NCBI GenBank assembly: GCA_022784065.1
Contig: JALFUO010000091.1
Span: 1 to 35,395 of the forward strand
DNA length: 35,395 bases
DNA from: Bacteroidales bacterium
GTDB lineage: Bacteria; Bacteroidota; Bacteroidia; Bacteroidales; Bacteroidaceae
Direction: 5' to 3'
Made by a program: the position numbers and the translations under genes. Shown piece by piece: positions 16,847-35,213 of this stretch (its first letter is position 1; every line of letters starts with the position of its first letter). Under the pieces are notes generated by a model. That model saw only the letters and a program-made list of their open reading frames with translations, made no database searches and was not told the DNA's origin.

Positions 16847-16860
16847 AAATAGACTGTTTT

Positions 16861-17028
16861 AGTAAACAAGTAAACGAGTAGACAAGTAAACAAGACATAT
16901 TACTCATGTAAAAAACAGTTTGCAAGACATTCCTGTCTCGTATACTCGTTTACTTGTTTACTCGTTTACTTATTTACTCGTTTACTTGTTTACTCGTTTA
17001 CTTGTTTACTCGTTTACTTATTTACTCC
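16861..17028. repeat. Composite octamer repeat element A
   Basis: The left arm (16861-16892) has four AGTARACR units. A 48-bp core follows (16893-16940) containing AGTTTGCAAGACA and the small hairpin AGACA-TTCC-TGTCT. The right arm (16941-17028) has eleven units of the complementary octamer TYTACTYG with a few variants. The arms are inverted relative to each other. The right arm ends 11 nt before the kdsB start codon. Element B at 18940-19050 has the same plan. Confidence 0.85.
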
Positions 17029-17039
17029 TCAATATAAAT

Positions 17040-17789
17040 ATGAACTTTACGGCAATAATTCCTGCAAGATACGCTTCCACGCGCTTCCCCGCCAAACCGC
17101 TCGCGCTGCTGGCCGGGAAACCTATTGTACAACACGTCTTTGAGCGCACCGCCGCCGAGATACCCGATGCCTGGGTGGCCACCGACGACGAGCGCATCGC
17201 CGAGGCCGTCCGTGCCTTCGGCGGCAACGTCGTGATGACCTCGCCCAACCACCGCAGCGGCACGGACCGCATCGGCGAGGCCGTGAAAAACATCGGCTGC
17301 ACAGCGGACGTGATTGTGAACGTGCAGGGCGACGAACCCTTTATCGCCGCGCAGCAGTTGCAGACCATCAAGCAATGCTTCGACGACCCCGAGACCGAAA
17401 TCGCTACGCTCGTGAAACCTTTCGCCCCGACCGACGCTTGGGAAAAACTCTCCAACCCCAACAGTCCGAAGGTGGTGGTGGACAACCGAGGCTTCGCGCT
17501 TTATTTCAGCCGCAGCGTCATTCCTTACCTGCGCGGCGTGGAACAAAAGGACTGGACGGCTCGGCACGAGTTTCTCAAGCACATCGGCCTCTACGCCTAC
17601 CGCGCCGAAACGCTCCAGCGCATCACGGCGATGCCGCAAGGCGCATTGGAACAAGCCGAATCGCTCGAACAGTTGCGTTGGCTGCAAGCGGGACTTAAAA
17701 TAAAAGTGGGGCGCACCGACTTGGAAACCATCGGCATCGACACACCCGAAGACCTCGAAAAGGCAGAGGCATTCATCAAAAGACAATAA
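17040..17789 (+). CDS. kdsB: 3-deoxy-manno-octulosonate (KDO) cytidylyltransferase
   Basis: A 249-aa CMP-KDO synthetase, which activates KDO with CTP for lipopolysaccharide inner-core synthesis in the cytoplasm. The N-terminal IIPARYASTRFPAKPLALLAGKP is the nucleotide-binding signature. VVMTSPNHRSGTDRIGEA, VNVQGDEPFI and RHIGLYAYR-like HEFLKHIGLYAYR are also characteristic. The C-terminus GIDTPEDLEKAEAFIKRQ is canonical. I set the start at the ATG at 17040; a 40-residue upstream extension is only translated octamer repeat (LLVYSFT-type). The MORN gene starts 18 nt after the stop. The octamer array lies where leader or promoter sequence would be expected. Confidence 0.95.
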   Translation: MNFTAIIPARYASTRFPAKPLALLAGKPIVQHVFERTAAEIPDAWVATDDERIAEAVRAFGGNVVMTSPNHRSGTDRIGEAVKNIGCTADVIVNVQGDEPFIAAQQLQTIKQCFDDPETEIATLVKPFAPTDAWEKLSNPNSPKVVVDNRGFALYFSRSVIPYLRGVEQKDWTARHEFLKHIGLYAYRAETLQRITAMPQGALEQAESLEQLRWLQAGLKIKVGRTDLETIGIDTPEDLEKAEAFIKRQ

Positions 17790-17807
17790 GACTATTCAGA
17801 CAAGACT

Positions 17808-18923
17808 ATGCTCAATAAACTCAAAACTATACTCTTCGCCATCGCCTTGCTTGCCGCGCCCCTCTCGGCGCAGAAACTGCAAGTGGGCTCGTGCGAACTG
17901 AAAGACGGCGGCATCTACACCGGCGAACTGCTCGGCGGAAAGGCCAACGGCAAGGGACGCGCCGTGTATGAAAACGGCGACACCTACGAAGGCGAGTTCG
18001 TAAAAGGCTTCCGGCAGGGGCAAGGCACCTTTACCGCCGCCGACGGCTCGCGCTACGAGGGCTCGTGGATGAAAAACGAAAGGCACGGCAAGGGCACGTT
18101 CTACGCCGTGAATAATAACCGCTACGTCGGCCTCTGGTATCGCAACCGCAAGGAGGGGCACGGCGTTATGTACTACTACAACGGCGATGTCTACGACGGC
18201 GACTGGAAGGAAGACAAGCGCGAAGGCAAAGGCACGTACACCTTTAAGAGCGGCGCGTTCTACAAAGGCGACTGGGAGGACGACAAAAAGACCGGCAAAG
18301 GCTACTTCGACTGGAACGACGGCTCGAAATACGAAGGCACATGGCTCAACAACCGCCGAAACGGAAAGGGCACGTATTTCTATGCTGACGGCGACTATTA
18401 CACCGGCGACTGGAAAGACGACATGCAGAACGGCAAGGGCATCTATAAGTTCCGCAACGGCGATGTCTACGAAGGGCAGTATGTTGACGGCGAGCGCACC
18501 GGCGAGGGCATCTTCAAGTTTGCCACGGGCGACCAGTACAACGGCCATTTCCTGAACGGCGAGCAGAGCGGGCAAGGCACTTTCATCTGGAAAAACGTAG
18601 CCAACTATACGGGGCAATGGCAAAACAACATGAGAAACGGCCACGGCACGTATAAGTGGAAAAACGGCGACGAATACACCGGCTCCTGGGTCAACAACAA
18701 GATGGAAGGCAAAGGCGTGCTGCGCACTGCCGACGGCACTAAGTTCAACGGCGAATTCAAGGAAGGGCGCAAGCACGGCAAGTCGGTGGAACTGCGCCCC
18801 GACGGCTCTAAAATAGAATGTACCTACAAGGACGGCGAACGCCACGGCAAATACGTGGAGTACGACCGCAACGGAAACGTCACCAAGAAAGGCGAATATT
18901 CCAACGGCCGCGTGGTGCAATAA
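17808..18923 (+). CDS. Secreted MORN-repeat protein
   Basis: A 371-aa protein with a signal peptide (cleavage likely after SA21, before Q22). The rest is fourteen consecutive 23-residue MORN repeats of the form Y-x-G-x-W/F-x4-x-x-G-x-G-x-x-x-x-x-x-G-x-x, with a short partial repeat at the end. MORN arrays form elongated beta-hairpin rods that bind proteins or lipids. In bacteria their function is usually unknown. Repeats 13 and 14 are degenerate (FNGEFKEGRKHGKSVELR and IECTYKDGERHGKYVEY), as is common at array ends. It is expected in the periplasm or on the envelope. It follows kdsB by 18 nt, and element B lies after its stop. The family is certain, the role is not. Confidence 0.88.
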   Translation: MLNKLKTILFAIALLAAPLSAQKLQVGSCELKDGGIYTGELLGGKANGKGRAVYENGDTYEGEFVKGFRQGQGTFTAADGSRYEGSWMKNERHGKGTFYAVNNNRYVGLWYRNRKEGHGVMYYYNGDVYDGDWKEDKREGKGTYTFKSGAFYKGDWEDDKKTGKGYFDWNDGSKYEGTWLNNRRNGKGTYFYADGDYYTGDWKDDMQNGKGIYKFRNGDVYEGQYVDGERTGEGIFKFATGDQYNGHFLNGEQSGQGTFIWKNVANYTGQWQNNMRNGHGTYKWKNGDEYTGSWVNNKMEGKGVLRTADGTKFNGEFKEGRKHGKSVELRPDGSKIECTYKDGERHGKYVEYDRNGNVTKKGEYSNGRVVQ

Positions 18924-18939
18924 TTTTTGGACGATTTTT

Positions 18940-19050
18940 AGTAAACAAGTAAACGAGTAAACAAGTAAACAAGACAAGTTACCAAATAAAATATAGTTTG
19001 CAAGACAAATCTGTCTCGTCTACTCGTTTACTTGTAAACTCGTCTACTAA
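18940..19050. repeat. Composite octamer repeat element B
   Basis: The left arm has four AGTAAACR units (18940-18971). The core (18972-19018) contains AGTTTGCAAGACA and the hairpin AGACA-AATC-TGTCT. The right arm has four inverted units (19019-19050) that end in TCTACTAA. Both outer edges therefore read TTAGTARAC inward, so this looks like a bounded inverted element. It fills most of the 160-bp gap before glgB. Confidence 0.85.
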
Positions 19051-19083
19051 TAAGACATATCAACACCTTAAATCAAATATATT

Positions 19084-21141
19084 ATGAAAACTTCCCCCAA
19101 GAAAACCACCAAGGCTGCCGCAGCGAAGCCGCAACGCCTCAAAATCGTGAAAAACGACCCTTGGCTCGAACCGTTTGAAGGCGCAATCCAAGGCCGCCAC
19201 GACCATGTGCTCCACAAGCTCTACGAACTTACGGCCGGCAAGAAACCGCTCTCGGAATTTGCCGACGGCCACCTGTATTTCGGCCTGCATAAGACAGAAA
19301 AGGGCTGGGTGATCCGCGAATGGGCACCCAATGCCACGGCGATTTATCTCATCGGCGATTTCAACGGTTGGCAGGAAAACGAGAAATATGCCTTCAAACG
19401 CCTCAAAAACTCTGGCAACTGGGAACTCAAACTCCCTGCGAAAGCCCTCAAGCATCAAGACCTCTACAAACTCACAGTGCACGGGGACGGCGGCGAAGGC
19501 GAGCGCATTCCTGCTTGGTGCCGCCGCGTGGTGCAGGACGACGATACAAAGATATTCAGCGCACAGGTGTGGGCTCCCGAACAGGAATACGTGTTTAAGA
19601 AAAAGACGTTCAAGCCCAACACCGCCCCGCTGCTGATTTACGAATGCCATATCGGCATGTCGCAGGACGCTGAAAAGGTGGGCACATACAATGAATTTCG
19701 CGAGAACGTGCTGCCGCGCATCATCGAAGAGGGGTACAACTGCATACAGATTATGGCTATTCAGGAGCACCCCTATTACGGCAGTTTCGGCTATCACGTA
19801 AGTTCTTTCTTCGCCCCGTCCTCCCGCTTCGGCACGCCCGAAGAGTTGAAGCATCTCATCGACGAGGCGCATCAGGCTGGCATCGCCGTAATTATGGATA
19901 TGGTGCAGAGCCACGCTGTGAAGAACGAAATCGAAGGCCTCGGCAACTTTGCCGGCGACCCCTCTCAATATTTCTATAGCGGCGGTCGCCGCGAGCACCC
20001 CGCATGGGACAGCCTTTGCTTCGACTACGGCAAGAACGAGGTAATCCACTTCCTCCTTTCCAACTGCAAGTATTGGCTCACGGAATTCCATTTCGACGGC
20101 TTCCGCTTCGACGGCGTTACGTCGATGCTCTATTACAGCCACGGCCTCGGCGAAGCGTTCTGCGGCTACGGCGACTACTACAACGGGCATCAGGACGACA
20201 ATGCCATCTGCTACCTCACCCTTGCCAACCTCCTTATCCACGAGGTCAATCCCAAGGCCATCACCATAGCCGAAGAGGTGTCGGGTATGCCGGGACTGGC
20301 AGCCCCGTTCAAGGACGGCGGCTATGGCTTCGACTATCGCATGGCCATGAACGTGCCCGACTATTGGATTAAGACCATTAAGGAATGCCGCGACGAGGAT
20401 TGGAAACCCTCTTCGATTTTCTGGGAACTCACCAACCGCCGCGCCGATGAAAAGACGATATCTTATTGCGAAAGCCACGACCAGGCACTCGTGGGCGACA
20501 AGACCATCATCTTCCGCCTCATCGACGCCGATATGTACTGGCATTTCCGCAAGGGCGACGAAAACGGCACGGTGCATCGCGGTATCGCGCTCCACAAAAT
20601 GATCCGCCTCATCACGGCCTCAACGATTTGCGGCGGCTACCTCAACTTCATGGGCAATGAGTTCGGCCACCCCGAATGGATTGACTTCCCGCGCGAAGGC
20701 AATGGCTGGAGCCATAAGTATGCCCGCCGCCAATGGAACCTTGTGGACAACAAAGATTTGTGTTACCACTTCCTCGGCGACTTCGACAAGGCGATGCTCG
20801 ACACGATTAAGTCGGAAAAGAATATCCAGAAGTTGCCCGTTCAGGAAATCTGGCACAACGACGGCGACCAAATCCTTGCCTATCAGCGCGGTTCGCTGCT
20901 CTTCGTGTTCAACTTCAACCCCACGCAATCGTTCACGGGCTACGGATTCATGATGAAGGAAGGCGCCTACGACGTGGTGCTCAACACCGACGCCAAAGCC
21001 TTCGGCGGCAACGGCCTGTCAGACGACAGCATCCGCCATTTCACCAACTACGACCCGCTTTTGAAGAAGGACGGCAAAGGTTGGCTGCAACTCTATCTGC
21101 CCGCCCGCTCTGCCGTTGTTTTGAGAAAGGTGGAAGAATAA
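19084..21141 (+). CDS. glgB: 1,4-alpha-glucan branching enzyme
   Basis: A 685-aa GH13 enzyme that makes alpha-1,6 branches in glycogen. After a basic N-terminal tail, a CBM48 domain (about residues 55-150, REWAPNATAIYLIGDFNGW) precedes the catalytic barrel. The catalytic residues are visible: nucleophile D343 in GFRFDGVTSM, acid/base E397 in IAEEVSGMPG, and D466 in ESHDQALVGDK. DMVQSHAVKNE is conserved region I. The layout and HYSHGLG-type segment resemble the eukaryotic-like GlgB subgroup found in Bacteroidetes. The C-terminal beta-sandwich ends in PARSAVVLRKVEE. A terminator hairpin lies 32 nt after the stop. Confidence 0.95.
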   Translation: MKTSPKKTTKAAAAKPQRLKIVKNDPWLEPFEGAIQGRHDHVLHKLYELTAGKKPLSEFADGHLYFGLHKTEKGWVIREWAPNATAIYLIGDFNGWQENEKYAFKRLKNSGNWELKLPAKALKHQDLYKLTVHGDGGEGERIPAWCRRVVQDDDTKIFSAQVWAPEQEYVFKKKTFKPNTAPLLIYECHIGMSQDAEKVGTYNEFRENVLPRIIEEGYNCIQIMAIQEHPYYGSFGYHVSSFFAPSSRFGTPEELKHLIDEAHQAGIAVIMDMVQSHAVKNEIEGLGNFAGDPSQYFYSGGRREHPAWDSLCFDYGKNEVIHFLLSNCKYWLTEFHFDGFRFDGVTSMLYYSHGLGEAFCGYGDYYNGHQDDNAICYLTLANLLIHEVNPKAITIAEEVSGMPGLAAPFKDGGYGFDYRMAMNVPDYWIKTIKECRDEDWKPSSIFWELTNRRADEKTISYCESHDQALVGDKTIIFRLIDADMYWHFRKGDENGTVHRGIALHKMIRLITASTICGGYLNFMGNEFGHPEWIDFPREGNGWSHKYARRQWNLVDNKDLCYHFLGDFDKAMLDTIKSEKNIQKLPVQEIWHNDGDQILAYQRGSLLFVFNFNPTQSFTGYGFMMKEGAYDVVLNTDAKAFGGNGLSDDSIRHFTNYDPLLKKDGKGWLQLYLPARSAVVLRKVEE

Positions 21142-21173
21142 TTTTTGTGATTGACCATACCTATTATAACAAC

Positions 21174-21201
21174 TTGGGGCGCATGATAACGTGCGCCCCA
21201 A
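21174..21201 (+). terminator. Terminator after glgB
   Basis: TTGGGGCGCA (21174-21183) pairs perfectly with 21192-21201 around an 8-nt loop and is followed by ATTTTC. It lies between glgB and the next + strand gene, which starts 19 nt later, so that gene may need readthrough or its own promoter. Confidence 0.65.
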
Positions 21202-21219
21202 ATTTTCAAAAGCAATCTG

Positions 21220-22362
21220 ATGCCTAAAATCCTTGTTTCATTGCGCGTTATCTTCGCTCTGTTCCTATTTTTCTTCCTTTCCGTGGCACAGGGCGACGTG
21301 CTGTGCTATCTATACCGCCGCCTCATAGATGCCTCGTCCGAACCCGTGCACTGGCTACTGGGCGGCGCTATGGCGGCGATACTCATATTTATAATGTGGC
21401 TGCTTTCGCGCACGGCCGTATGCCGCCGCTATCCGCTGATAGAAACGATACCGGCAGGCTTCGCCGCCGTGCTGGCGGTCAGCCTGCCGTTTGCCAGTTG
21501 GCAGCACGTGCTGGTTACCATATTATATTATTGTGTCGCAGCCGCAATGCTCGTCTTTTGCAACAGATTGCTTCAAAAGGCGTATCACACGGGCCGCCGC
21601 CGCTTGCCGCTCCTGATTTACGGCACGGGATTGCTCCTCGTTTGCTTCGTAACGGGCCTGCGTACCGCCGCCACCGATGCAGACCACTACGAACTGTGCA
21701 CAGCCGAAGCCCTGCGCCGCTGCGACTATGCCGCCGCCTACCGCACGGGCGAAATTTCCCTCGCTGTCACGCCGCGCCTCTTTGCCATGCGCTCTTACCT
21801 CTTGGCAACACAGGGCGAGGGCTTGCCGCAAACGCTTTTCAAGCAGCCCATTCCTGCGGGCGGCAGCAAGCATCTGCTTTTGCCCAACGACGAATGGCAA
21901 CGCCTCAACTTCCCGCCCGACAGCCTTTACGTCCGCCTTGGCGGCACGCCTACCGAAGGCGAAACGACCTTGCAGTTTTTGAAACGCCTTGCCTTGCCGG
22001 CCGACACGGCGCATTGCCCCACCCCGCTTGCCCGCGACTATTATCTTTGCGCCCTGCTGCTGGACCGTCGCCTGTCGGACTTCGCAAACGCATACGCCGC
22101 GCTCTGCCCTGGCGACTCTGTAAACATTCCCCGCTTTTACAGCGAAGCCCTCGCGCTCCACAGCCGCAAGCACACCCTCCCCTTTGCCTACAGCGACGCA
22201 GCCGTGGCAGCCAACTTGCTCGACTTTATGGACATGGCACGCACGGCGGGCACGGCGCAAGAGGGGCGTAACCTCCTGCGCCGCAGCTACGGTGAAACTT
22301 TTTGGTGGTATTATTATTTCGGACAGAAAGGAACGGGACTGTCTGACTATATGGGAAACTAA
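21220..22362 (+). CDS. Multispanning membrane protein, function unknown (possibly DUF6057)
   Basis: A 380-aa protein. The first 150 residues hold about five hydrophobic helices (for example LRVIFALFLFFFLSVAQG, GGAMAAILIFIMWLL, YGTGLLLVCFVTGL). The remaining 230 residues are soluble and rich in alanine, leucine and aromatic residues, reminiscent of helical repeats. The end RRSYGETFWWYYYFGQKG resembles the YGxTYWWYYF-type ending I associate with the Bacteroidales DUF6057 family, though I could not check this. No enzymatic motif is visible. It starts 19 nt after the glgB terminator and ends at a bidirectional terminator. Confidence 0.65.
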   Translation: MPKILVSLRVIFALFLFFFLSVAQGDVLCYLYRRLIDASSEPVHWLLGGAMAAILIFIMWLLSRTAVCRRYPLIETIPAGFAAVLAVSLPFASWQHVLVTILYYCVAAAMLVFCNRLLQKAYHTGRRRLPLLIYGTGLLLVCFVTGLRTAATDADHYELCTAEALRRCDYAAAYRTGEISLAVTPRLFAMRSYLLATQGEGLPQTLFKQPIPAGGSKHLLLPNDEWQRLNFPPDSLYVRLGGTPTEGETTLQFLKRLALPADTAHCPTPLARDYYLCALLLDRRLSDFANAYAALCPGDSVNIPRFYSEALALHSRKHTLPFAYSDAAVAANLLDFMDMARTAGTAQEGRNLLRRSYGETFWWYYYFGQKGTGLSDYMGN

Positions 22363-22414
22363 ACGCCCGCCAAACATCTCTCGACGATACTTATACAGCA
22401 ATCTATTGCATTAT

Positions 22415-22450
22415 AAAAAGGAAGAGCAAACTTATTGCCCTTCCTTTTTT
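22415..22450. terminator. Bidirectional terminator between convergent genes
   Basis: AAAAAGGAAG (22415-22424) pairs with CTTCCTTTTT (22440-22449), extended inside by GCAA/TTGC. The + strand ends in a run of six T residues and the minus strand in five (22415-22419). It separates the unknown membrane gene (+) from sprA (-). Confidence 0.8.
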
Positions 22451-22479
22451 ATTGCCCCACAGCCTGTTCCAATTCAATA

Positions 22480-25400: not shown

Positions 25401-28400
25401 CCCATACCTCGACGCTGCGCGCATCGCGCGAATTATTGCGCACGCCAATCATGATGGTGCGCACTTCGCCGAGCGTGGGGTTACCCATCACGCTGATCTT
25501 GTTGGCGGGGCGGTTGGCATCGTATTCAGAATAAAGCTGCGCGTAAGAGATCAGCCCGAGCGATTTCTGCTTATTGCGGTTGCGCTTGGCTGAGGTGAAG
25601 ACAGAGAGGTCTATGTCGAGCATATTCTCCTCCGGCCATACGATGCGCGCACCGGCATCGGAGTTGGGATAAAGTCCGTCGGGGGTGATTTTCAGAGGAA
25701 TTTCGTATTCGTAGAAATTGTTCTTATAGTCCGTGCCGAGGCGCAAGAAGAGGCTCACCTGACCGTCCTCCACGGGCGTTTCGCCGGGCAGGCTATTGGC
25801 GTGGGCGAAGAGTTGCAGATGCTTGTAGCGGCGGAGGTCGAGCGTTGTGTTCTTATAGACGGCGCGGGCATCGTTGGAGGCCAGCTGCTTCACAGTGATA
25901 GCGAGTGCCTGCTCGTCGTTTTGCAGCACTTGGTCCTGCCCCGGGTCGATGACGCGGCTGATGCCGGGCGGTATGACGTAGTTGACGGGCTGTTTCTCGT
26001 TGTTTTCCTCGAAACTCACGGCCGAAGCGCTCACCGTGCCGCTCACATCGGGGGCTTTGCCAGCGTAAAGGCTCTGCTCGTAGGTGCGCCATTCGGCGTG
26101 GACGAGATTGAGCGTGGCGAAGCGCAGCACGACGGGATTTTCAAAGTTCGTCATGTACATACGCATGAAGCGAATGCTCGAGAAGTCGGAGATGCCGCCC
26201 ACGTTCTTCTCGTATTCCTTCACGGGTATGCGGAACAGATACCACACAGCCTGCTTGGAGACGCCGTCGCGGGTGGTGACGCTCGTGATGCGCTTGTCGG
26301 TGATGTAGTTGCTGCCCACGTTCATTGCCTCGGGCGAGATGCGCACGCGGTACTGGTAGTACTTTTCGTATTCGTTGAGCGTGAAGTCTTGGTTGATATC
26401 CTCCACGTCGGGCGTTGTCTTGTAGGCCGTGCTGTAACTCTCGGGCGAGTTGTCGGCATCTACGGAGTTGCCGTTGGGGTTATTTATATATTTGTATCGG
26501 TCGAGAATAGAAAGCTGCCGATCGTCGTAGTCCGTGCCGCGGAAATAGTGATACTTATCGGCTGAGGGGGAGTTGTAAATATCTTGAAAGGCGTCGGGTT
26601 TGACAACAGACTGAACCTTTGAGAGATAATCGGCATAAGCAGGATAGCTGCGCTCTTGCTCGCTCGTCAGGCCGTTGAAGCCTACATCTTGGTTCTGACG
26701 CGAGCCGCTGGCGGTGTTGAACGCATAGGTCACGCTGTTTTGCGTGGGCACGCGGCCCCACACTGTTTCGGAATACTGCGAGGGGTCGCCGTCGACGGGC
26801 AGGCCGCTCTCGTAGAACTTCTTGCCGTCTTTGAGCACGTCCTCGCTCACCTCGCCGAGGTTGATGTAGAGATCGCCGCTCACGGCAGCGGGATTGTCGG
26901 CATTCTTGACAAAGGGATCCATCAGCCAAAACTCGATATACTCGATATTGGCACTTTCAAAGTCGCTCGTTTCCAGTTTGCGCATCATGCCGCCCCAGCG
27001 TTTGGTGGGATTGGGCAAATGTCCGTCTTCATCAAGGCCCGGGTCAAGGTTGTACGGGCCGCGCTCGTTGGGATAGTAGGCAAGGTTGAGCACATTGAGG
27101 GTGTTGGCCTCCTTCATGTTAATGCTCTTGTTGGGAAACAACTCGCTCTTGTACACCTCGCGCACCCACGGGTCGGAAAGCTGTGCGAGGTCGTTTTTCA
27201 GATGGCCCGGCGTGAGCGATGACGAGCGGCGCGTGAAGAGCGGGTCGATGTAGTACCACGCGAGGCGGGCGCGGTTGTAGCCGTAGCGCACGTCGTTCGT
27301 GAGCTTCGCCTCGTCAAACACCGAGGGCACGGCGCAGAGGTTCCACTCCACAGGGTTGGAGATGTCGATGTTGCTCTTGGCGCTTTCAAAGTCGTCGATA
27401 TAGGAGGCATTGCCTTGTGCGCCCTTGTTCTTGCCGGCAATGAGCTGCGCAAATTCGCCCGTGAAACTGATGCTCGACGGGGCGGTGCAATGGATAAGCG
27501 GCAGTTTGTCAAGCCAGTCCGTGAGCCGCTGGCTCTGCTTCTTCCACGAGATGTTCACGCCCCATATAGTATTATTGAGCGGCTCGCTGCCCATGGTGAC
27601 CTTCGTGGTGAGCGGCTTCTCGCCGAGGTGCATGAACGTACCGCCGATTTGGAAATCTTTGGAAAAGTCGTATTCCCACGTCATTCCGAAGAGCGTTTTG
27701 CGTTGCATGCCGTAGTCGGTGTTGCTTTCGAGGCTTACGTTCACGGGCGTGCCTGCATCGAGGATACTCTGGTTGAGTATGCGCACGATGCCTGAATTAT
27801 AGTCCACAGTGTAGTCCGCGCCTTCCGAGAGCGTCTGTCCGCCGGCGGTCACGAGCACCGACCCGCGCGGTATGTTCATCGCTCCGAGGTCGATTTCGTC
27901 GTTGCGCGAGGCTTTGTATTGTCCCGAAATCTGATATTTGTTCTTCTCGGCAATTTGCCGCGCAACGGTGCGCGTGGAGTCGTAAAGTTCTTGGAACACA
28001 TAGCGTTTCGCCGTCTCTTCGTTGCCGATAGCGGCGGCGAGATCCTTGCCGAAAGGCTCTACTACGGGGAAGTATACGCGGCCGCTCGAGGCATCGATGG
28101 TGTAACCCTCCACATAGTCGAAATAGCCGTTGGGGTTGCGGCGGTTGTTGTTGTCGAGGCGGTCGAGGCCGATAAGCTGTATGATTTTCTTGCTTTTCAG
28201 CGCGGGTTCTGGAATGTACGATAGATATACGCCCGTGGTATCGCTCAAAATCTTGATGTCGAGGCGGAACTTTTCCTTTTGGATAGACGAGGCGTTGAGG
28301 GAATAGACGTTTTTCATCATCAGGTTCCAGTTGGGCATCTTCGGCGTGCAGGCCGTGTTGCGCAGCGCCTTGACGAAGAGCGCCTCTCTATTGTTCTGGC

Positions 28401-29865
28401 GGTCGGTTGAAAACTCGCCGACCTGATAGTTCTGCCCTTTGTAAGTGTACTCATACGCCACGGCCAGCACCTGGTCTGTCTGGAGCGTCGATTTGAGCGA
28501 GATGTAGCCGAGCGCCTCGTTTAAGATGTATTCCGAAGAGTTGAGCAGGCGGGCGTTTTCCAATTTCTCGTAGTCCACGCCGCCCGACAGGCCGAAGCCG
28601 TCCAGCGTCTGCGTAGCAAGCGAAATGTCGCGCGAGGCGGCGAGCTCGTTGGCGAGGTAAGAATAAAGGGAGTTGGCGGCGTTGCAGGGATTCACGTCTG
28701 CGCCGGGCGTCCAGAGCGGATTGCCGATATAGTCGTGCTCGCCGAGGTCGGCCATTGCCACAAGGTTGCGCGTGTTGGTGGTCGTTCCGTTCTTATTGGT
28801 CACCCAAATCTCCACGCGGTTAATCTTAATGCCCGAGGTAATCGTGGGCAGCTGCGCCATGTTGGCGTTGTATTTGTCACGGAAATAGTGGGCGAGGAAG
28901 AAGTGGCGGTTTTCATCGTAAGCATCTGCCGAAAGCTCGAAGTTGGTGAGCTGCACGCCGCCCTTGGAGCTGACGCTCTGCGAGCTGGACTTCTTTTGGG
29001 AGATGACGGTGCTGATTTTGAACTTGCCGAACCGCAGGTCGGCACGTATGCCGAAGAGCGACGACGCGCCGCGTATGAGCGACGAGTTGGTGGGCATGGA
29101 GATGTTACCCGCCTCGATGAGCTTGATGATTTCGTCCTCTTTGCCTTCGTAGTGCAGTTTGAGGTTTTGCGTGTCGAAGTTGAAGGTCGCCTCGGAGTTG
29201 TAGTTGAAGTCGAGGTTTATCTTGTCGCCCACCTTGCCGTTGACGCTGAGATTGATTTTCTCGTCGAAATCGAAGCCGAACACCTTGCGGTTGCGCTCGG
29301 AGAGCGAGGGGTTGTCGGTGAAGCGCGTGTTGGCACCGATTTTCAGTTCGGCTGAGCCTTGCGTCTTGATGCGCACACCGCCCGGGCCGAAGATTTTATC
29401 AGCTGGCCCGAGGTTGAACTTCATGTCGGTGAAGTCGAACTTTTCTTTTCCCTTGGCCTTGAAGTCGTCGCGGTTTTTCGAGCGGTAGTATTCCGACATG
29501 GAGCGGCGGAAACTCCAATTCATGTATTCCTCGCTCGTCATAAAAAACGGCGTTTCGAGATAGTCGTCGCCAAGTTTCGTCCCGAGGCGGTAGGTATCTT
29601 CCTTTTCGTTGTACTCTGCCTCCGTCTTCAGGTTTTCGGGGTCTTTGAGGTCGATGCTTGCCTTCGGCTCGTCTTCTTCCTGAATGGTCGTATGCTTCAC
29701 CTTGAAGCGCGGACCTACCGTGTCGGGCGGCGCAGCGGCAACGCTTGCCTTTGACGGGTGCGCGACAAAGGCGGGGCGTATGGCATACGCCCGCAGAACC
29801 AGTGCCGACACTGCCGCAGCCAGCATCAAGACAACGAATAATATTTTCAGGAAAGAAGATTTCAC
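22480..29865 (-). CDS. sprA: SprA/Sov, outer-membrane translocon of the type IX secretion system
   Basis: A 2461-aa protein, the length expected for SprA/Sov, the giant 36-strand outer-membrane barrel through which T9SS cargo leaves the cell. Residues 1 to about 28 form a signal peptide or anchor (KILFVVLMLAAAVSALVLRAYA). The N-terminal half shows the repeated SprA domain pattern (for example LGPADKIFGPGGVRIKTQGSAELKIGANT and YEYTYKGQNYQVGEFSTD). The C-terminal third alternates beta strands and ends in the barrel-closing DFGFSIKFILNR. No frameshift or internal stop is seen. The start codon is GTG at 29865. It lies downstream of ruvA, an arrangement I recall from other Bacteroidetes such as F. 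johnsoniae. An 11-unit octamer array fills the intergenic gap and ends 11 nt from the start. Confidence 0.95.
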   Translation of the reverse strand: MKSSFLKILFVVLMLAAAVSALVLRAYAIRPAFVAHPSKASVAAAPPDTVGPRFKVKHTTIQEEDEPKASIDLKDPENLKTEAEYNEKEDTYRLGTKLGDDYLETPFFMTSEEYMNWSFRRSMSEYYRSKNRDDFKAKGKEKFDFTDMKFNLGPADKIFGPGGVRIKTQGSAELKIGANTRFTDNPSLSERNRKVFGFDFDEKINLSVNGKVGDKINLDFNYNSEATFNFDTQNLKLHYEGKEDEIIKLIEAGNISMPTNSSLIRGASSLFGIRADLRFGKFKISTVISQKKSSSQSVSSKGGVQLTNFELSADAYDENRHFFLAHYFRDKYNANMAQLPTITSGIKINRVEIWVTNKNGTTTNTRNLVAMADLGEHDYIGNPLWTPGADVNPCNAANSLYSYLANELAASRDISLATQTLDGFGLSGGVDYEKLENARLLNSSEYILNEALGYISLKSTLQTDQVLAVAYEYTYKGQNYQVGEFSTDRQNNREALFVKALRNTACTPKMPNWNLMMKNVYSLNASSIQKEKFRLDIKILSDTTGVYLSYIPEPALKSKKIIQLIGLDRLDNNNRRNPNGYFDYVEGYTIDASSGRVYFPVVEPFGKDLAAAIGNEETAKRYVFQELYDSTRTVARQIAEKNKYQISGQYKASRNDEIDLGAMNIPRGSVLVTAGGQTLSEGADYTVDYNSGIVRILNQSILDAGTPVNVSLESNTDYGMQRKTLFGMTWEYDFSKDFQIGGTFMHLGEKPLTTKVTMGSEPLNNTIWGVNISWKKQSQRLTDWLDKLPLIHCTAPSSISFTGEFAQLIAGKNKGAQGNASYIDDFESAKSNIDISNPVEWNLCAVPSVFDEAKLTNDVRYGYNRARLAWYYIDPLFTRRSSSLTPGHLKNDLAQLSDPWVREVYKSELFPNKSINMKEANTLNVLNLAYYPNERGPYNLDPGLDEDGHLPNPTKRWGGMMRKLETSDFESANIEYIEFWLMDPFVKNADNPAAVSGDLYINLGEVSEDVLKDGKKFYESGLPVDGDPSQYSETVWGRVPTQNSVTYAFNTASGSRQNQDVGFNGLTSEQERSYPAYADYLSKVQSVVKPDAFQDIYNSPSADKYHYFRGTDYDDRQLSILDRYKYINNPNGNSVDADNSPESYSTAYKTTPDVEDINQDFTLNEYEKYYQYRVRISPEAMNVGSNYITDKRITSVTTRDGVSKQAVWYLFRIPVKEYEKNVGGISDFSSIRFMRMYMTNFENPVVLRFATLNLVHAEWRTYEQSLYAGKAPDVSGTVSASAVSFEENNEKQPVNYVIPPGISRVIDPGQDQVLQNDEQALAITVKQLASNDARAVYKNTTLDLRRYKHLQLFAHANSLPGETPVEDGQVSLFLRLGTDYKNNFYEYEIPLKITPDGLYPNSDAGARIVWPEENMLDIDLSVFTSAKRNRNKQKSLGLISYAQLYSEYDANRPANKISVMGNPTLGEVRTIMIGVRNNSRDARSVEVWANEMRLQEFSNNGGWAARGALNLQLSDLASVNLTGHVETEGFGGIEESVSQRRDDNLYEYSVTANVEVGKLLPEKVKLQAPIYYAYSKERTSPRYNPLDTDMTMEEALDGLATEAEKDSLKNIAETVVINKNFSISGARFNISTKRHPMPYDPANFTFGYAHSARNTTGETTAWEKDENWKWNFGYSYTPNYKPYEPFKKLKGKSPWLKIVKEQNFNYIPQNIAFNSDINRTYYEFQERDMENLDNASIPLTWSSDFLWNRSFQLRWDLTKSIHASFSSGTNAEIEQPYTAVNKDLYPDRYSAWKDSVWQSIKHMGRPLSYQQTFDFTWKLPLNKLPLFDWLTADFAYNGTYNWTRGTDLEDGSTMGNNISNSRSTTYNARLNLETLYNHVPFLKKTNKKFAASATAAKKKPEQKNFTKEIQLKADTTLTIQHNQKSKKLRVTALRPDGTRYPIRYKVVDNNKIIVLSQDTARLKLTVSPRKRTEEQGWYKALQYATRFLMMVRNVSVNYSDKQNLNVPGFLPNVGDYFGQSKGGGLQPGLDFAFGFTGEDWLYKAKDKGWLLCSDDLVTPATMSRNRNLSIRATLEPFKDLKIDLSATRNETKNSSVQYMFDGMPATRTGSFSMTTISVGSAFEKTGSPDKGYKSKTFEKFVNSLAAYRDRVEAQYAGAPYPANSALAGQTFDPANGTVSPYAANVMIPAFLDTYTSGGSGLDIFPKLSALLPNWTVSYGGLAKLPKMKKVFKSFNLNHAYKSVYTVGSYSSFTSYQEYMNGFGFVTDVATGSPVPSCEFDVSTVSINESFSPLIGVDMTFVNNITTKVEYRKTRVLTLSMTSQQLSESRSNDLVIGLGYKISNLNLFSSKKTVKSKAKRTSKTETTKKTGSTGFASDLNLRLDFTIRNQSVLNRDIATLISQATSGNNAVQVSFSADYALSKYITLTAYYDRQKNKPLLTSSSYPVTTQDFGFSIKFILNR

Positions 29866-29876
29866 CTTAAAAATCG

Positions 29877-29964
29877 TCTACTTGTTTACTCGTCTACTTG
29901 TTTACTCGTCTACTCGTTTACTCGTTTACTCGTCTACTTGTTTACTCGTCTACTTGTTTACTAA
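29877..29964. repeat. Octamer array between ruvA and sprA, eleven units
   Basis: Eleven contiguous TYTACTYG units on the + strand occupy nearly the whole 103-bp gap. The array begins 4 nt from the ruvA stop and ends 11 nt from the sprA GTG. In the direction of transcription the units read AGTARACR, opposite to the kdsB and recF arrays. The ruvA-proximal boundary reads TTTTAGTAAACA, as at the left edges of elements A and B. Confidence 0.88.
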
Positions 29965-29968
29965 AACC

Positions 29969-30571
29969 TTACAGCAATTTCAGTCCCTGCTTGATCAGTT
30001 CCTCCACTGTGGCATGGGGTTGCTGGCGGATAAGCTGCATGACTACTTTGTGGGTCGGTGCGGGCGGGAAACCAAGCACGGTGAGTGCCGAAACGGCTTC
30101 GTCCACAATTTCCTTATTGGCCACGGGCTGCCCGGCGCCGGTTTCTGCCGCGCCGCTGCCTTCTGCCAAAATGCCCACTACCTTGTCGCGCAAGTCGAGA
30201 ATGATGCGCTGCGCGGCTTTCGGCCCGATGCCTTTCACGCTTTTGAGCGAGCGCACGTCTTCGTTCTGGATAATGCCCGCCAGTTCGGCAGGCGTGAAAG
30301 CCGAGAGTATCATGCGTGCCGTTTGCCCGCCCACGCCGTTCACGGAAACCAGGAGCGTGAACAGTTCCCGCTCCTGCTTCGTGGCAAAGCCGTAGAGCAG
30401 ATGCGCGTCCTCGCGGATGGCCTCATAGACATACAGTTTCACGTCCTTTTTGCCCTGTACGGCAGAATATGTGTTGAGCGAAACGAGCAACGCATAGCCT
30501 ACTCCGCAGGCTTCAACCGTTGCCTGCGTGGGCGTTAAGTCGTCTAATTGTCCTTTGATGTATTCAATCAT
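29969..30571 (-). CDS. ruvA: Holliday junction branch migration protein RuvA
   Basis: A 200-aa RuvA. The N-terminal OB-fold starts MIEYIKGQL and contains YEAIREDAHLLYGFATKQER. Two helix-hairpin-helix motifs follow (VNGVGGQTARMIL and VKGIGPKAAQRIILDLRDK). A flexible acidic/glycine-rich linker leads to the C-terminal domain III that binds RuvB (VDEAVSALTVLGFPPAPTHKVVMQLI). RuvA tetramers bind four-way junctions and load RuvB for branch migration in recombination repair. I took the ATG at 30571; an in-frame extension of 19 residues upstream is not conserved. ruvB is not in the window. It is followed by the octamer array and sprA. Confidence 0.95.
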   Translation of the reverse strand: MIEYIKGQLDDLTPTQATVEACGVGYALLVSLNTYSAVQGKKDVKLYVYEAIREDAHLLYGFATKQERELFTLLVSVNGVGGQTARMILSAFTPAELAGIIQNEDVRSLKSVKGIGPKAAQRIILDLRDKVVGILAEGSGAAETGAGQPVANKEIVDEAVSALTVLGFPPAPTHKVVMQLIRQQPHATVEELIKQGLKLL

Positions 30572-30619
30572 TGTGTTTAAGAATGCGTTCTCTCTCGTGG
30601 TTCGGCGGCATATTACCGC

Positions 30620-30673
30620 GAAACGCACAATATTATTTTATAACGTTTGTTATAGCCTAATATTGTGCGTTTC
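30620..30673. other. Long hairpin between yggS and ruvA
   Basis: A perfect 16-bp outer stem, GAAACGCACAATATTA (30620-30635) with 30658-30673, encloses a second 5-bp stem, ATAAC with GTTAT. It starts 20 bp after the yggS stop and is not followed by T residues on either strand, so processing or mRNA stability is as likely as termination. Confidence 0.7.
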
Positions 30674-30693
30674 TTATGAAAAAGTTGCTTGCC

Positions 30694-31362
30694 TTATATT
30701 CTTTCTCCGAAGATGTACGAACCGACGCGCACCAGCGTTGCGCCTTCCTCTACGGCTATCGGATAGTCGTGGCTCATGCCCCAAGAGCATTCTTTGAAAA
30801 AATCTTTATCTGCGAAATAAAGGGCTTTGTAGCGCTTGTAAAGTTCGTGCGCAAGATGAAACTCGCTGCGGATTTGGGCTTCGTCGTCGGTATTCGACGC
30901 CATGCACATCAGCCCCGCTATCTGCACGCCTGCCAATTCTTTCCATTCGCCGGCGGCAAGCATCTCCTCGCAGGCTTCGGGCGTGAAGCCGTATTTGCTT
31001 TCTTCCTGGGCAATATGCAGTTCGAGCAGGCAGGGAATGACGCGGCCGCAGCGCAGGGCCTGACGGTTGATTTCTTGCAAGAGGCGCAGGCTGTCCACGG
31101 CGTGGATAAGGCTGACGTAAGGCGCGATGTATTTCACCTTGTTTTGTTGCAGATGCCCGATGAAATGCCATTCGATGTCTTTGGGCAAGGCTGCGTGCTT
31201 GGCTTGCAGTTCCTGCACGCGGCTTTCGCCAAACACGCGCTGCCCGCAGTCGTAGGCTTCTTGCAGAGCCGTTACGGGGTGGAATTTCGACACTGCCACG
31301 AGGCGCACGCTCTGCGGCAGGCAGGCAATTACGTTCGCAAGATGGCTTTTAATAGTGCTCAT
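30694..31362 (-). CDS. YggS/PROSC-family PLP homeostasis protein
   Basis: A 222-aa member of the YggS/PLPBP family, which binds pyridoxal phosphate and helps balance vitamin B6 and amino acid pools; it has no firmly known catalytic reaction. The PLP lysine is K26 in VAVSKFHP. Other signatures are WHFIGHLQQNKVKY, SLIHAVDSLRLLQEIN, ELHIAQEESKYGF, GLMCMAS and the C-terminal phosphate-binding VRVGSYIFGER. I took the ATG at 31362; a longer in-frame reading runs backward through the tRNA-Tyr gene and cannot be coding. The start lies about 10 nt after the T-run of the tRNA terminator, so expression may come from readthrough. Confidence 0.93.
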   Translation of the reverse strand: MSTIKSHLANVIACLPQSVRLVAVSKFHPVTALQEAYDCGQRVFGESRVQELQAKHAALPKDIEWHFIGHLQQNKVKYIAPYVSLIHAVDSLRLLQEINRQALRCGRVIPCLLELHIAQEESKYGFTPEACEEMLAAGEWKELAGVQIAGLMCMASNTDDEAQIRSEFHLAHELYKRYKALYFADKDFFKECSWGMSHDYPIAVEEGATLVRVGSYIFGERI

Positions 31363-31370
31363 GGTCTTAG

Positions 31371-31408
31371 GATTAAAAAAAGGGTATGCCCGCGAGCACA
31401 CCCTTTTT
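31371..31408 (-). terminator. Rho-independent terminator of tRNA-Tyr
   Basis: A 9-bp stem (AAAAAGGGT at 31377-31385 with 31400-31408), extended by a 3-bp inner TGC/GCA pairing, is followed on the minus strand by a run of seven T residues. It is 13 nt after the tRNA 3' end and just before the yggS start. Confidence 0.85.
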
Positions 31409-31421
31409 GCAAAACTACTTG

Positions 31422-31504
31422 TGGGCAAAGATGGATTCGAACCACCGAAGGCGTAAGCCAGCAGATTTACAGTCTGCCCCATTTGGCCACTCTGGTATTT
31501 GCCC
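31422..31504 (-). tRNA. tRNA-Tyr (GTA anticodon)
   Basis: 83 nt. The acceptor stem GGGCAAA pairs with TTTGCCC and the discriminator is A. The anticodon loop CTGTAAA carries GTA, with a closing stem GCAGA/TCTGC. A long class II variable arm (around TGGCTTACGCCTTCGG) is present, as expected for bacterial tRNA-Tyr, and the T-loop is GGTTCGAATCC. CCA is not encoded. A promoter match lies at 31546-31576 and a terminator at 31371-31408. Confidence 0.95.
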
Positions 31505-31511
31505 ATGCTGC

Positions 31512-31531
31512 GGGCGTGTTATGAAACGCCC
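31512..31531. repeat. Imperfect GGGCGT...ACGCCC palindrome
   Basis: GGGCGTGTT opposite AAACGCCC with one mismatch, lying between the tRNA-Tyr gene and ribH, in the tRNA leader. It belongs with the palindromes at 5152-5170 and 13270-13289. Confidence 0.5.
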
Positions 31532-31545
31532 CAACTTTTACGCTG

Positions 31546-31576
31546 CAAAGTTATGAATTATTTCTGTAACTGCCAA
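31546..31576 (-). promoter_or_regulatory. Promoter for tRNA-Tyr
   Basis: On the minus strand TTGG (-33) at 31573-31576, then 19 nt, then TAACTTTG (-7) at 31546-31553. It overlaps the 3' end of ribH. Transcription would start near 31539, about 35 nt before the mature tRNA. Confidence 0.6.
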
Positions 31577-32052
31577 GCGTAGTCTACCATTTTTATAGCA
31601 GTAACTGCGAACTCGCAGCCTTTATTGCCGAGTTTTCCGCCTGCGCGCTCTTCGGCCTGCTCTTGCGTGTTGGTCGTAATCAGACCGAAAATCACGGGAA
31701 TGCTGCCGTTGGCATTGAGGTCGGCCAAGCCGCGCGTCACGCCTTCGCAGATATAATCGAAATGGGGCGTATCGCCGCGCACCACGCAACCGATGGCAAT
31801 CACGGCGTTCACGTGCCCGTGTTTCGCCAGCTGCGCCGCGCCGTAAATCAGTTCGAAACTGCCAGGCACGCGCTTGATGGTGATTTTAGGAAGTCCCACG
31901 CCGTGCTCTTGCAGCGTCTGCACCGCGCCTTCAAGCAACTTGTCCGTGATGTGGTTGTTCCATTCGCTCACCACGATGCCGATGCGCATATCCGTGGCGT
32001 CGGGAATGGGCGTTACCTGTGCGTCGAGGTAGGAAAAATTTTGAGTAGACAT
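31558..32052 (-). CDS. ribH: 6,7-dimethyl-8-ribityllumazine synthase
   Basis: A 164-aa lumazine synthase, the penultimate enzyme of riboflavin synthesis. It condenses 5-amino-6-ribitylaminouracil with dihydroxybutanone phosphate and usually forms a 60-mer or pentamer. Signatures are [43 protein letters not shown] with the catalytic histidine H97, and [18 protein letters not shown] followed by GKLGNKG. It starts 3 nt after the TPR gene stop, so the two form an operon. No FMN riboswitch is visible upstream. Confidence 0.95.
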
Positions 32053-32055
32053 TTT

Positions 32056-32763
32056 TTATTTGGTCAAGCGCTCAATATATTTGTCGATGACTGCGCCGAG
32101 CACCTGGCCGTTGTATTCCTCGTTTGCGCAAAGGGGCGATTCGGGATAGTCGGCCTTGATTTGCTGATAGAGGGCGAGGGCTTCCTCGTTCTTCTTCTGA
32201 GATTCGAGGATTTGCGCTGCCTGGAACGTATATTCTGCGCAGAGTGCAGGCACGTCGGTCTTCTTGGCTGCTTTCTTGAAAGTATCGACAGCCTTGTCGA
32301 GCTGCTTGTCGGCAGCGTAGCAGTTGGCAAGAGCGGCTACGGCCTGAGCGGAAATAGTATTGTCGCCCTTCGTGCTGAACTTTTCGAGCGAGGCAATGGC
32401 TTCCTTAATCTTGCCCATTTGGAAATAGCAGATACCAGCCTCGTAGTTAGCCACGTTGCCGGCATCGGTAGAACCGTAAGTTTCGGCAATCTTCGTAAGG
32501 CCGGGGGTCTGTGCATCGCCTTTGAGCGCGTTCTCAAAGTCCTGCTTCATCACGAATTTCTGCATCACGTTGCCGAGCAGTTCCTGCGCCTTTTCTTCGC
32601 GGGGCTTGGCATAGCCGTAAATGTAGGCGAACGTGCCGCCCACGATTACCACAACGGCCACGATGCCGATGATGAGTTGTTTCTTGTACTTGCTGATAAA
32701 TGCCTCGGACTGTGCAATCTTGTCGTTCACGTCCAATGCGTTTTGCTTTTTGTTTTGGCTCAT
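32056..32763 (-). CDS. TPR-repeat inner-membrane-anchored protein
   Basis: A 235-aa protein. A charged cytoplasmic N-terminus of about 28 residues precedes one transmembrane helix (about 29-51, LIIGIVAVVVIVGGTFAYIYGY). The C-terminal region of about 175 residues carries tetratricopeptide repeats, for example AGNVANYEAGICYFQMGKIKEAIASLEKF, AQAVAALANCYAADKQLDKAVDTFKKA and FQAAQILESQKKNEEALALYQQI. The topology resembles YfgM-type periplasmic TPR proteins, which work with chaperones at the Sec translocon, but that link is only by analogy. It is the first gene of the unit with ribH and is divergent from recF. Confidence 0.82.
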   Translation of the reverse strand: MSQNKKQNALDVNDKIAQSEAFISKYKKQLIIGIVAVVVIVGGTFAYIYGYAKPREEKAQELLGNVMQKFVMKQDFENALKGDAQTPGLTKIAETYGSTDAGNVANYEAGICYFQMGKIKEAIASLEKFSTKGDNTISAQAVAALANCYAADKQLDKAVDTFKKAAKKTDVPALCAEYTFQAAQILESQKKNEEALALYQQIKADYPESPLCANEEYNGQVLGAVIDKYIERLTK

Positions 32764-32808
32764 AATGATATTTATGCTCTAATTTTTTAATTGTCTGTCA
32801 GTCGCGCC

Positions 32809-32842
32809 GCACATTATTATATATATAAATAATATTGTGTGC
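32809..32842. other. AT-rich imperfect hairpin in the TPR-ribH leader
   Basis: GCACATTATTAT is opposed by an AATAATATTGTGTGC arm, with a small bulge. Its arm resembles that of the yggS-ruvA hairpin at 30620-30673 (GCACAATATTATTT-like). It lies in the expected 5' leader of the TPR-ribH transcript. Confidence 0.45.
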
Positions 32843-32882
32843 ATCGGCAGCGTTTTTGCACACTGCTTCAATTAAGGCGGTG

Positions 32883-32913
32883 CAAATTTAATGTTTTTCG
32901 TAGGATAATTAAA
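32883..32913 (-). promoter_or_regulatory. Promoter for the TPR-ribH operon
   Basis: On the minus strand TTTA (-33) at 32910-32913, 19 nt, then TAAATTTG (-7) at 32883-32890. A start near 32876 gives a leader of about 113 nt that contains the hairpin at 32809-32842. Confidence 0.5.
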
Positions 32914-32961
32914 GCAAAAGGCCTTTTTTTTATAGGAAACGCTATTTTCGACCGCGCTGGC

Positions 32962-32993
32962 TTTGCCTATCTGCCCTCGGCGTGGTAACTTTG
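32962..32993 (+). promoter_or_regulatory. Promoter for recF
   Basis: TTTG (32962-32965), 20 nt, TAACTTTG (32986-32993), an exact match to both Bacteroidetes boxes. A start near 33000 puts the GTGCAAG-family element and the octamer array inside a leader of about 174 nt. Confidence 0.7.
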
Positions 32994-33036
32994 CGGTAGT
33001 TTTCCCTTGTTTACTTGTTTCACTTCGTGATTTTCT

Positions 33037-33085
33037 GCTGCGCTCGGCATAGCTCGAACAAGTTCGGCTCTGCACTCGCTTGCAC
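33037..33085 (-). repeat. GTGCAAG-family element, copy 2
   Basis: Read on the minus strand it runs from GTGCAAGCGAGTGCAGAGC through a central GAACTTGTTC palindrome to TGCCGAGCGCAGC. It lies between the recF promoter and the octamer array, in the recF leader. It is nearly identical to copy 3 at 35020-35067. Confidence 0.75.
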
Positions 33086-33098
33086 GAAAATTTCCTCG

Positions 33099-33162
33099 TC
33101 TACTTGTTTACTCGTTTACTTGTTTACTTGTTTACTCGTTTACTCGTCTACTCGTTTACTAA
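33099..33162. repeat. Octamer array before recF, eight units
   Basis: Eight contiguous TYTACTYG units, ending in TTTACTAA exactly 11 nt before the recF ATG, which is the same distance as for kdsB and sprA. A stray TTTACTTG-like unit also appears near 33010. Confidence 0.88.
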
Positions 33163-34558: not shown

Positions 34559-34808
34559 ATTGGGGCCTATTGCAAACGCCCGCCGTGCGGATTGATTGCC
34601 TGCGCCGAATGGGCAAATGGTTGGGGCGGGCTGTAAGCCCAATTGTTGCCCCCAGCCCCGGGCAGCACCCGGGGGAGCAATGTTGCATTGATTAAAGTGT
34701 CGCGCTCTGAAATGTCGTGCAAACGAGGGCAATCAAGCTTGCTTGGATTGCCGAGTGCGGCCGACATTATGAACAGAGCAACCTGCTTTATGAGGGGCAA
34801 CGCCCCGT
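34559..34808. other. Non-coding spacer with a diverged repeat copy
   Basis: No gene is seen. A GGGGCGGGCTGTAAGCCCAA start marks a diverged copy (34620-34692) of the hairpin-rich sequence in the inverted repeat arms that follow. The rest has no clear signal. Confidence 0.5.
34620..34692. repeat. Diverged third copy of the hairpin-rich repeat
   Basis: About 60 bp align with 35248-35320: the GGGGCGGGCTGTAAGCCCAA start, a GTTGCCC segment, then a GGGCAG...CCC-rich hairpin and GATT. Many substitutions and small changes are visible, in contrast to the near-identical arms at 34809 and 35214. Confidence 0.6.
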
Positions 34809-34990
34809 GTGGCGCTAAGGGCGTAATGGGTTACGCGCTTTCGGCGCGTGGCATTTTTGCGCAGGCGCAAAAATGCCGAATGTATTAATCGCGGTCTACG
34901 TTCCCCCAGGGCGCTGCCCTGGGCTATGGGCAACATTTGGGCTTACAGCCCGCCCCAATCATTTACCGGGCATTTGTGCAAATTGGTTCA
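34809..34990. repeat. Left arm of a 182-bp inverted repeat
   Basis: It is the reverse complement of 35214-35395 with only about four mismatches. It contains serial hairpins: GCGTAA-TGGG-TTACGC, GCATTTTTGCGC with GCGCAAAAATGC, CCAGGGC-GCT-GCCCTGG-like, and GGGCT-TAC-AGCCC. No transposase is encoded. Confidence 0.85.
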
Positions 34991-35019
34991 GCTAAATGCA
35001 CCTTTTCTTGACATTTTCG

Positions 35020-35067
35020 GCTGCGCTCGGCATAGCCCAACAAGTTCGGCTCTGCACTCGCTTGCAC
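35020..35067 (-). repeat. GTGCAAG-family element, copy 3
   Basis: Nearly identical to copy 2 at 33037-33085, with the same flanks and a GAACTTGTTGGGC centre. The neighbouring bases TTTTCG and CGAAAA add another inverted layer. Confidence 0.75.
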
Positions 35068-35074
35068 GAAAATT

Positions 35075-35134
35075 GGCGGCGGCTCGGCAGAGCCCGATCA
35101 AACAAGTTTGTCGGTGTCTGCTCTCGCCTTGCAC
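35075..35134 (-). repeat. GTGCAAG-family element, copy 4
   Basis: It keeps the flanks GTGCAAGGCGAGAGCAGA and GCCGAGCCGCC but has a longer centre, CCGAC-AAACTTGTTTG-ATCGG, that forms a different hairpin. Confidence 0.72.
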
Positions 35135-35213
35135 AAACGTAGAATTAACTGCAAACAATATGCCCAATATTAAAATGCACCTTTGGCAACTGCTCGCCAA
35201 AGGTACATTTATA

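Follow-up and report, generated by a model that had tools for sequence, protein, structure and literature searches.

What are the short octamer arrays that stand in the gene junctions of a Bacteroidales genome, and how did they come to lie there? The question is raised by the window—the whole 35,395-nt stretch analyzed here, contig JALFUO010000091.1 of GenBank assembly GCA_022784065.1, from a Bacteroidales bacterium of the Bacteroidaceae—in which runs of the 8-bp word TYTACTYG recur in five places. A first-pass annotation had described these runs as contiguous arrays, those before kdsB, recF, and sprA ending exactly 11 nt from the start codon. Our analysis points elsewhere. The arrays are probably the arms, or leftover single arms, of a non-autonomous mobile family of ~110 bp, with the build of a foldback transposon or miniature inverted-repeat transposable element (MITE), that disperses into gene junctions.

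Octamer runs were confirmed at all five places, every one of them in a gene junction, and our hand count of in-phase units, imperfect units included, agrees with the 45 counted before (4 + 11 at 16861–17028, 4 + 4 at 18940–19050, 11 before sprA, 8 before recF, and ~3 at 6265). The contiguity described earlier holds for the arrays before sprA and recF, which are one-armed, but not for the other two of the four larger sites, at 16861–17028 (before kdsB) and 18940–19050 (before glgB), each of which consists of a left arm, a unique core of ~48 bp, and a right arm of inverted orientation. This inverted-arm build, absent from the earlier description, is the main fact about the arrays. The octamer features of the window are as follows:

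16861..16891, no strand assigned: left arm of element 1, four reverse-complement octamers, outer end TTTTAGTAAAC
16892..16940, plus strand: core of element 1, AAGACA ... GCAAGACATTCCTGTCTCG
16941..17028, plus strand: right arm of element 1, 11 octamers, stopping 11 nt before kdsB
18940..18970, no strand assigned: left arm of element 2, four reverse-complement octamers
18971..19018, plus strand: core of element 2
19019..19050, plus strand: right arm of element 2, four octamers, one being the odd unit TAAACTCG; the outer end is GTCTACTAATAA, and the arm stops 33 nt upstream of glgB
29877..29964, plus strand: one-armed array of 11 octamers, outer end TTTACTAAAA, between sprA and the next gene
33099..33162, plus strand: one-armed array upstream of recF, 8 octamers, with outer end TTTACTAA
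6264..6291, no strand assigned: short degenerate run, ~3 units in reverse complement, immediately followed by the ATG at 6292

The sprA gene lies on the minus strand with a GTG start at 29865; the gene on the other side of its array is presumably ruvA.

How widespread is this build in the genome? The host assembly (G000; 2,228,181 bases, 85% complete) contains 309 matches, overlaps counted, to the TYTACTYG pair TYTACTYGTYTACTYG and none to a backwards control. Besides the window we read 40 stretches totaling 328,542 bases (15% of the genome), taken from places on contigs C1–C19 and from further contigs holding the core pattern; because the latter contigs were picked for that pattern, the second part of the sample leans to two-armed copies. 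These sequences hold 72 clusters of at least two exact octamers. Exact units occur in both orientations in 42 of the clusters, and at least two units in both orientations in 49, with one mismatch allowed and within 180 bp. Among 559 in-phase units (≤2 mismatches), the commonest forms are TTTACTTG (118), TTTACTCG (104), TCTACTCG (73), and TCTACTTG (27), and 81 are the terminal units TTTACTAA/TCTACTAA. The C/T switches at positions 2 and 7, previously said to yield four main unit types, do dominate, but other changes occur as well (e.g., A at position 2 or 3, 35 units each). Genes, junctions, and start distances come from a simple in-house gene caller that takes the first in-frame ATG, by which 84% of the sample is coding. 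Of the clusters, 66 lie in junctions (55 co-directional, 7 divergent, and 4 convergent), 2 in predicted frames, and 4 at stretch ends; the proposal of dispersed, junction-bound arrays is thereby borne out.

By eye, the full element reads TTTTAGTAAACAAG(octamers)ACA AGTTACTCATATAAAATATAGTTTGC AAGACATCTCTGTCTC G(octamers)TCTACTAATAA, with terminal inverted repeats TTAGTARACRAG...CTYGTYTACTAA. The terminus TTAGTARACRAGT has 189 matches in the host genome and the core pattern 24, each with none in its controls, and a single copy used as query finds 77, a number that includes opposite-strand matches of the same palindromic copies. Of 44 anchored elements, 17 have their outer anchors AGTARAC and GTYTACT 107–111 bp from each other; 19 of the 27 remaining lengths are in octamer phase with this form (P = 0.0005), as are 14 of the 18 non-modal lengths up to 160 bp (P = 0.0006). 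Because lengths change in whole-octamer steps, slippage or unequal exchange is a plausible source of the variation. The elements have the traits of MITEs (short length, many copies, common termini, and terminal inverted repeats) and also that of foldback-type transposons, in that inverted tandem-repeat arms enclose a centre (49 of 72 clusters; 46 cores collected).

Were the elements dispersed as whole units? The copies L240–L243, of a recent subfamily, are 98.3–100% identical over 118 bp, and their 60-bp flanks are 17–33% identical. At three unrelated sites (L251, L254, and L258), the same ~60-bp palindromic insert, itself a hairpin, occupies the same place in the core hairpin; L251 and L254 share 98.3% identity across 181 bp, L258 is shorter by 8 bp, or one octamer, and the flanks are 22–42% identical. 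Since the same nested insert recurs in near-identical copies at unrelated sites, the composite must have been copied as a unit. In a floating-offset comparison of flanks, the longest common direct strings of 19 copies sum to 93, against 74.1 ± 4.4 after permutation (0 of 5000), and strings of at least five bases occur in 10 of the 19, against 4.5 expected (P = 0.006), the best being 9, 7, and 7 bp. Across the 58 genomes of the genus, the core pattern is found in the host alone, and the host core was not seen by eye in 19 congeneric MORN–glgB spacers (from the 57 other genomes, all with a query match somewhere) or in four kdsB upstream regions. One of those spacers (L207, in G169) contains a few TYTACTYG-like units. 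Judged from these comparisons, insertion of the elements is likely.

The cores also differ in direction. When 46 of them are set in one direction, the letters adjoining the core sort the arms into 25 of class A...C (type 1), 16 of class G...T (type 2), and 5 of class G...C. The odd unit GTAAAC stands in the right arm of 8 of the 25 type 1 copies and in none of the other two classes, and its reverse, GTTTAC, stands in the left arm of 8 of the 16 type 2 copies and, again, in none of the others. Because the arm units swap between classes in this way, 16 of 46 copies have their core reversed with respect to arms that otherwise match, the switch presumably lying inside AGACA/TGTCT. Thirteen of these turned cores form one closely related group; the remaining three are diverged, one of them (L260) with mixed arms. 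At least one core inversion is thus supported, and, because so many of the turned cores are close relatives, a single old event may also account for them.

Is the word itself confined to this genome? The TYTACTYG pair occurs in 9 of the 58 genus genomes, with 309 matches in the host and at most 16 elsewhere (control, one or two matches in 3 of 58). In 295 genomes of the order it is present in nine, and more than twice only in the host (309) and in G342 (44); the backwards control gives one to three matches in 19. A different word, AGGTTATR, forms pairs in 11 of the 58 genus genomes (139 in G190, 109 in G193, 105 in G160, 48 in G195, 39 in G064, and at most 23 in the others), with none in the host and none for the control in all 58. 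This word, too, is built into inverted arms. The loci fetched from G189, G190, and G195 mostly have centres with AAAGTTAC...GTAACTTT-like ends; those from G160 have a GGGGCTGCGCGACGCCC-like hairpin as the centre. Loci L298 and L299 of G160 have a short GC-rich hairpin with very long AGGTTATR-type arrays to one side of it, one cluster spanning ~275 bp. By eye, host cores and many sister cores share a motif, AGTTACT, beside the left arm, a hint of common descent. Conversely, G342, which belongs to a different family of the order and matches WRGA01 (Candidatus Azobacteroides sp. Mp193P4bin6) base for base in the four stretches compared, has a GGGGTTCGGGTAYCACAAAGCCGGAC-type centre between TYTACTYG arms at four of eight fetched places. 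The kdsB junction of G195 holds AGGTTATR arrays, and the MORN–glgB spacer of G189 (L194), where the host has an octamer element, holds a hairpin enclosed by inverted arms of a further short word, AATGAATAATG / CATTATTCATT. On sister stretches we relied on 10-mer counts, as Tandem Repeats Finder was too noisy there. Short arrays of nine-base words (CGATAACTC, GAAGTTAAA) were seen at L209 and L211 in the single-contig congener G082. A cross-phylum word scan returned at least 110 loci, and the 68 inspected came mostly from Bacteroidales-type groups and from Chloroflexi, other phyla being represented by one locus each; inverted arms were recognized by eye in several Bacteroidales and Chloroflexi loci among the matches listed. 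As evidence for one family, this spread across phyla is weak.

Other repeats accompany the octamers. A second palindromic repeat of ~70–90 bp, of the GAAATTTTCGTGCAAGCGAG...GCAGCCGAAAATCTCAAAG type, borders or breaks up octamer arms, doing so at a recurrent position, and in L251, L254, and L258 a variant of it lies within the core hairpin. The window holds one copy:

33006..33099, no strand assigned: copy of this second dispersed repeat, directly adjoining the recF array, 89–91% identical to the copies at L019, L025, L026, L030, and L175

A third dispersed repeat, GC-rich, is present as pieces 81–91% identical at 34578–35374 of the window and at L166 (G000:C18, about 31080–32450). Among the window's genes, a response regulator with a PglZ domain at 11420–13021, which we take to be PorX-like, would, along with sprA, fit a type IX secretion system.

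Could another kind of system explain the arrays? The strongest competitor, though an unlikely one, is that they are REPINs, inverted pairs of words mobilized by a RAYT (Y1) transposase present in single copy, with octamer arms in place of the repetitive extragenic palindromic (REP) sequences. REPINs resemble the octamer elements in their genome-specific over-represented words, inverted doublets with spacers, and extragenic position, and differ in that REPs are palindromic and tied to RAYT (PMC3116915), a tie we do not see for the octamers. Genome-specific words, inverted pairs, variable centres, and confinement to junctions thus fit; the host genome has one Y1_Tnp match, with octamer clusters flanking it at distances of ~1.1 kb and ~1.5 kb; and full-length matches exist in the array-bearing genomes G158, G159, G160, and G342. 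Yet the host Y1 gene is directly flanked by another family, the third repeat above, and the Y1 loci of those other four genomes have octamers of neither word within ~1.5 kb. The array-bearing G193, G195, G169, and G189 have no Y1_Tnp match (75, 76, 87, and 56% complete, respectively), G190 and G064 have partial matches only, over the cut-off, and single octamer arms form no hairpin of their own. Y1/RAYT finds no support as the mobilizer, as it shows no association with the arrays, with the proviso that the four array-bearing genomes without a match are 56–87% complete. The frame of the host Y1 gene seems shifted near its end.

Less probable still is that the arrays are plain minisatellites, slippage-born octamer runs spread by gene conversion without transposition. 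The one-armed clusters (23 of 72, with up to 12 loose units of one orientation), the lengths in octamer steps, and the low word counts in other genomes, level with the reversed control, would all suit such an origin, but a shared unique core, a fixed 107- to 111-bp form, sharp ends, a shared nested insert, and flank repeats would not.

Might the elements have been selected as RNA, as intercistronic hairpins that stabilize or regulate operon mRNA? The two window elements have strong predicted hairpins (z of −9.3 and −4.6), and the preponderance of clusters between co-directional genes noted above also speaks for such a role. However, 161 of the 209 sample junctions of at least 20 bp are co-directional anyway (19 divergent, 29 convergent), and 34 of 41 distinct anchored elements between co-directional genes fold more weakly in mRNA sense than in antisense (P = 2.5e-5); with two elements listed twice, the count is 36 of 43 listings, with means of −43.7 and −52.7 kcal/mol, respectively. 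Covariation is lacking as well: the arms of the 17 modal-length elements pair worse with each other than with arms permuted among copies (0.841 vs. 0.876), which we read as a mark of strand asymmetry, not of selection for pairing. Nor do the core pattern's restriction to 1 of 58 genomes and its absence by eye from orthologous spacers suit a selected element. Rfam, applied to window positions 16700–19200, gave no family near threshold (best 26.1 bits against 211 needed). A selected RNA element is therefore very improbable, and the RNA leader proposed in the first-pass annotation finds no footing here. As a separate candidate, a promoter within the element was rejected: the Bacteroides-type consensus TTTG-N17..23-TAnnTTTG occurs on 0 of 144 strands (0.56 in shuffles), and its −7 part alone 6 times, against 11.6 in shuffled sequence.

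What, then, of the 11-nt spacing? In the window it applies to kdsB and recF, which start with ATG, and to sprA with its GTG start only; the glgB element stops 33 nt short, and the run at 6265 directly abuts its ATG. Over the whole sample, array-to-start distances range from 1 to 449 nt (51 of 69 between 8 and 43) and equal 11 in exactly 2 of 69 cases, both in the window, so that the rule is a coincidence. A spacing switch by slipped-strand mispairing, as first suggested, keeps the whole-octamer variation, for which slippage is plausible, but loses its fixed distance. The least probable alternative is the earlier one of an operator array or spacing switch for a regulator, for which whole-unit variation and the many array ends 8–43 nt before start codons speak, and against which stand the lack of either a fixed distance or a common unit orientation to the start and the unrelated roles of the four downstream genes compared with Pfam (kdsB, glgB, sprA, and recF types).

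How would a mobile family of this kind work? Whole units would be copied into gene junctions, presumably by a transposing enzyme supplied in trans, which would recognize either the arms or the termini TTAGTARAC...GTYTACTAA. The arms, whose lengths step by whole octamers, may grow and shrink by slippage or unequal exchange, and the core could turn inside them, with a switch point presumably within the 5-bp AGACA/TGTCT. The observed bias toward the weaker mRNA hairpin may be kept by selection or by a preference at insertion.

Several observations weigh against a mobile family. No mobilizing gene was found: no inward pair of termini 0.6–3 kb apart was seen by eye beyond ordinary copies, among the 100 termini (of 189) that were listed, and Y1_Tnp, over the cut-off in 27 of 59 genomes, does not track array abundance. 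No clear target duplication emerged from a pooled fixed-offset scan of 44 elements, where the best result was 5 against 0.4 expected, among ~1,760 offset/length combinations; the floating-offset test covers the 19 copies with both termini found, from 30 loci fetched, and 9 of these 19 have flank strings below five bases. One-armed clusters make up 23 of the 72. The anchored set (n = 44) includes a few spurious entries (e.g., C76:8790 and C84:41382) along with copies carrying nested inserts, and three elements split by inserts each count as two clusters. The stretches read were in part picked by the core pattern, and they come from one genome of the species, so that movement is deduced from copies, not observed between strains.

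Has such a family been seen before? Porphyromonas gingivalis, of the same order as the host, offers the nearest bacterial case, BrickBuilt. This MITE exists in 19 copies with 23-nt direct repeats and IS5-like 12-nt ends (PMC4596501). It shares with the octamer elements an intergenic, miniature format, short tandem repeats of variable unit number, and irregular target duplications, and BrickBuilt_13 lies beside sprA, which an octamer array also adjoins in the host; its 23-nt repeats, however, fill the centre between leader and tail (PMC4596501), whereas the octamer elements have inverted 8-bp arms, a unique centre, and 189 termini. With a unit of 8 bp and ends of TTAGTARAC, instead of 23-nt repeats and GAGACCTTTGCA-like ends, the octamer elements were not assigned to BrickBuilt. 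Foldback transposons, which include FB and Galileo besides Tetris, have inverted arms of tandem repeats around a centre, repeats that also occur as free arrays, and modular rearranged forms; they are eukaryotic, and Tetris has repeats of ~220 bp (PMC4079207), in contrast to bacterial 8-bp units. The likeness is one of architecture, with no link in sequence to be expected. No description of the octamers was found in searches of an open-access collection, which leaves out most subscription journals, and a search for plasmid carriage gave just one 35-bp partial match in one of 72,556 records. Only tentatively do we suggest a bacterial counterpart of foldback elements with word and centre as independent modules, the word set by lineage, with unlike centres on same-word arms and a centre that can turn at AGACA/TGTCT; such modularity and turning would point to an undescribed enzyme reading octamer arms.

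If the mobile-family reading is right, the short arrays in many junctions of the host and some related Bacteroidales would be traces of one mobile build, its word differing by species. The family would then offer a bacterial model for foldback-type elements and for the origin of inverted tandem-repeat arms, and it would counsel caution against reading such arrays before genes as leaders or operators without a test.

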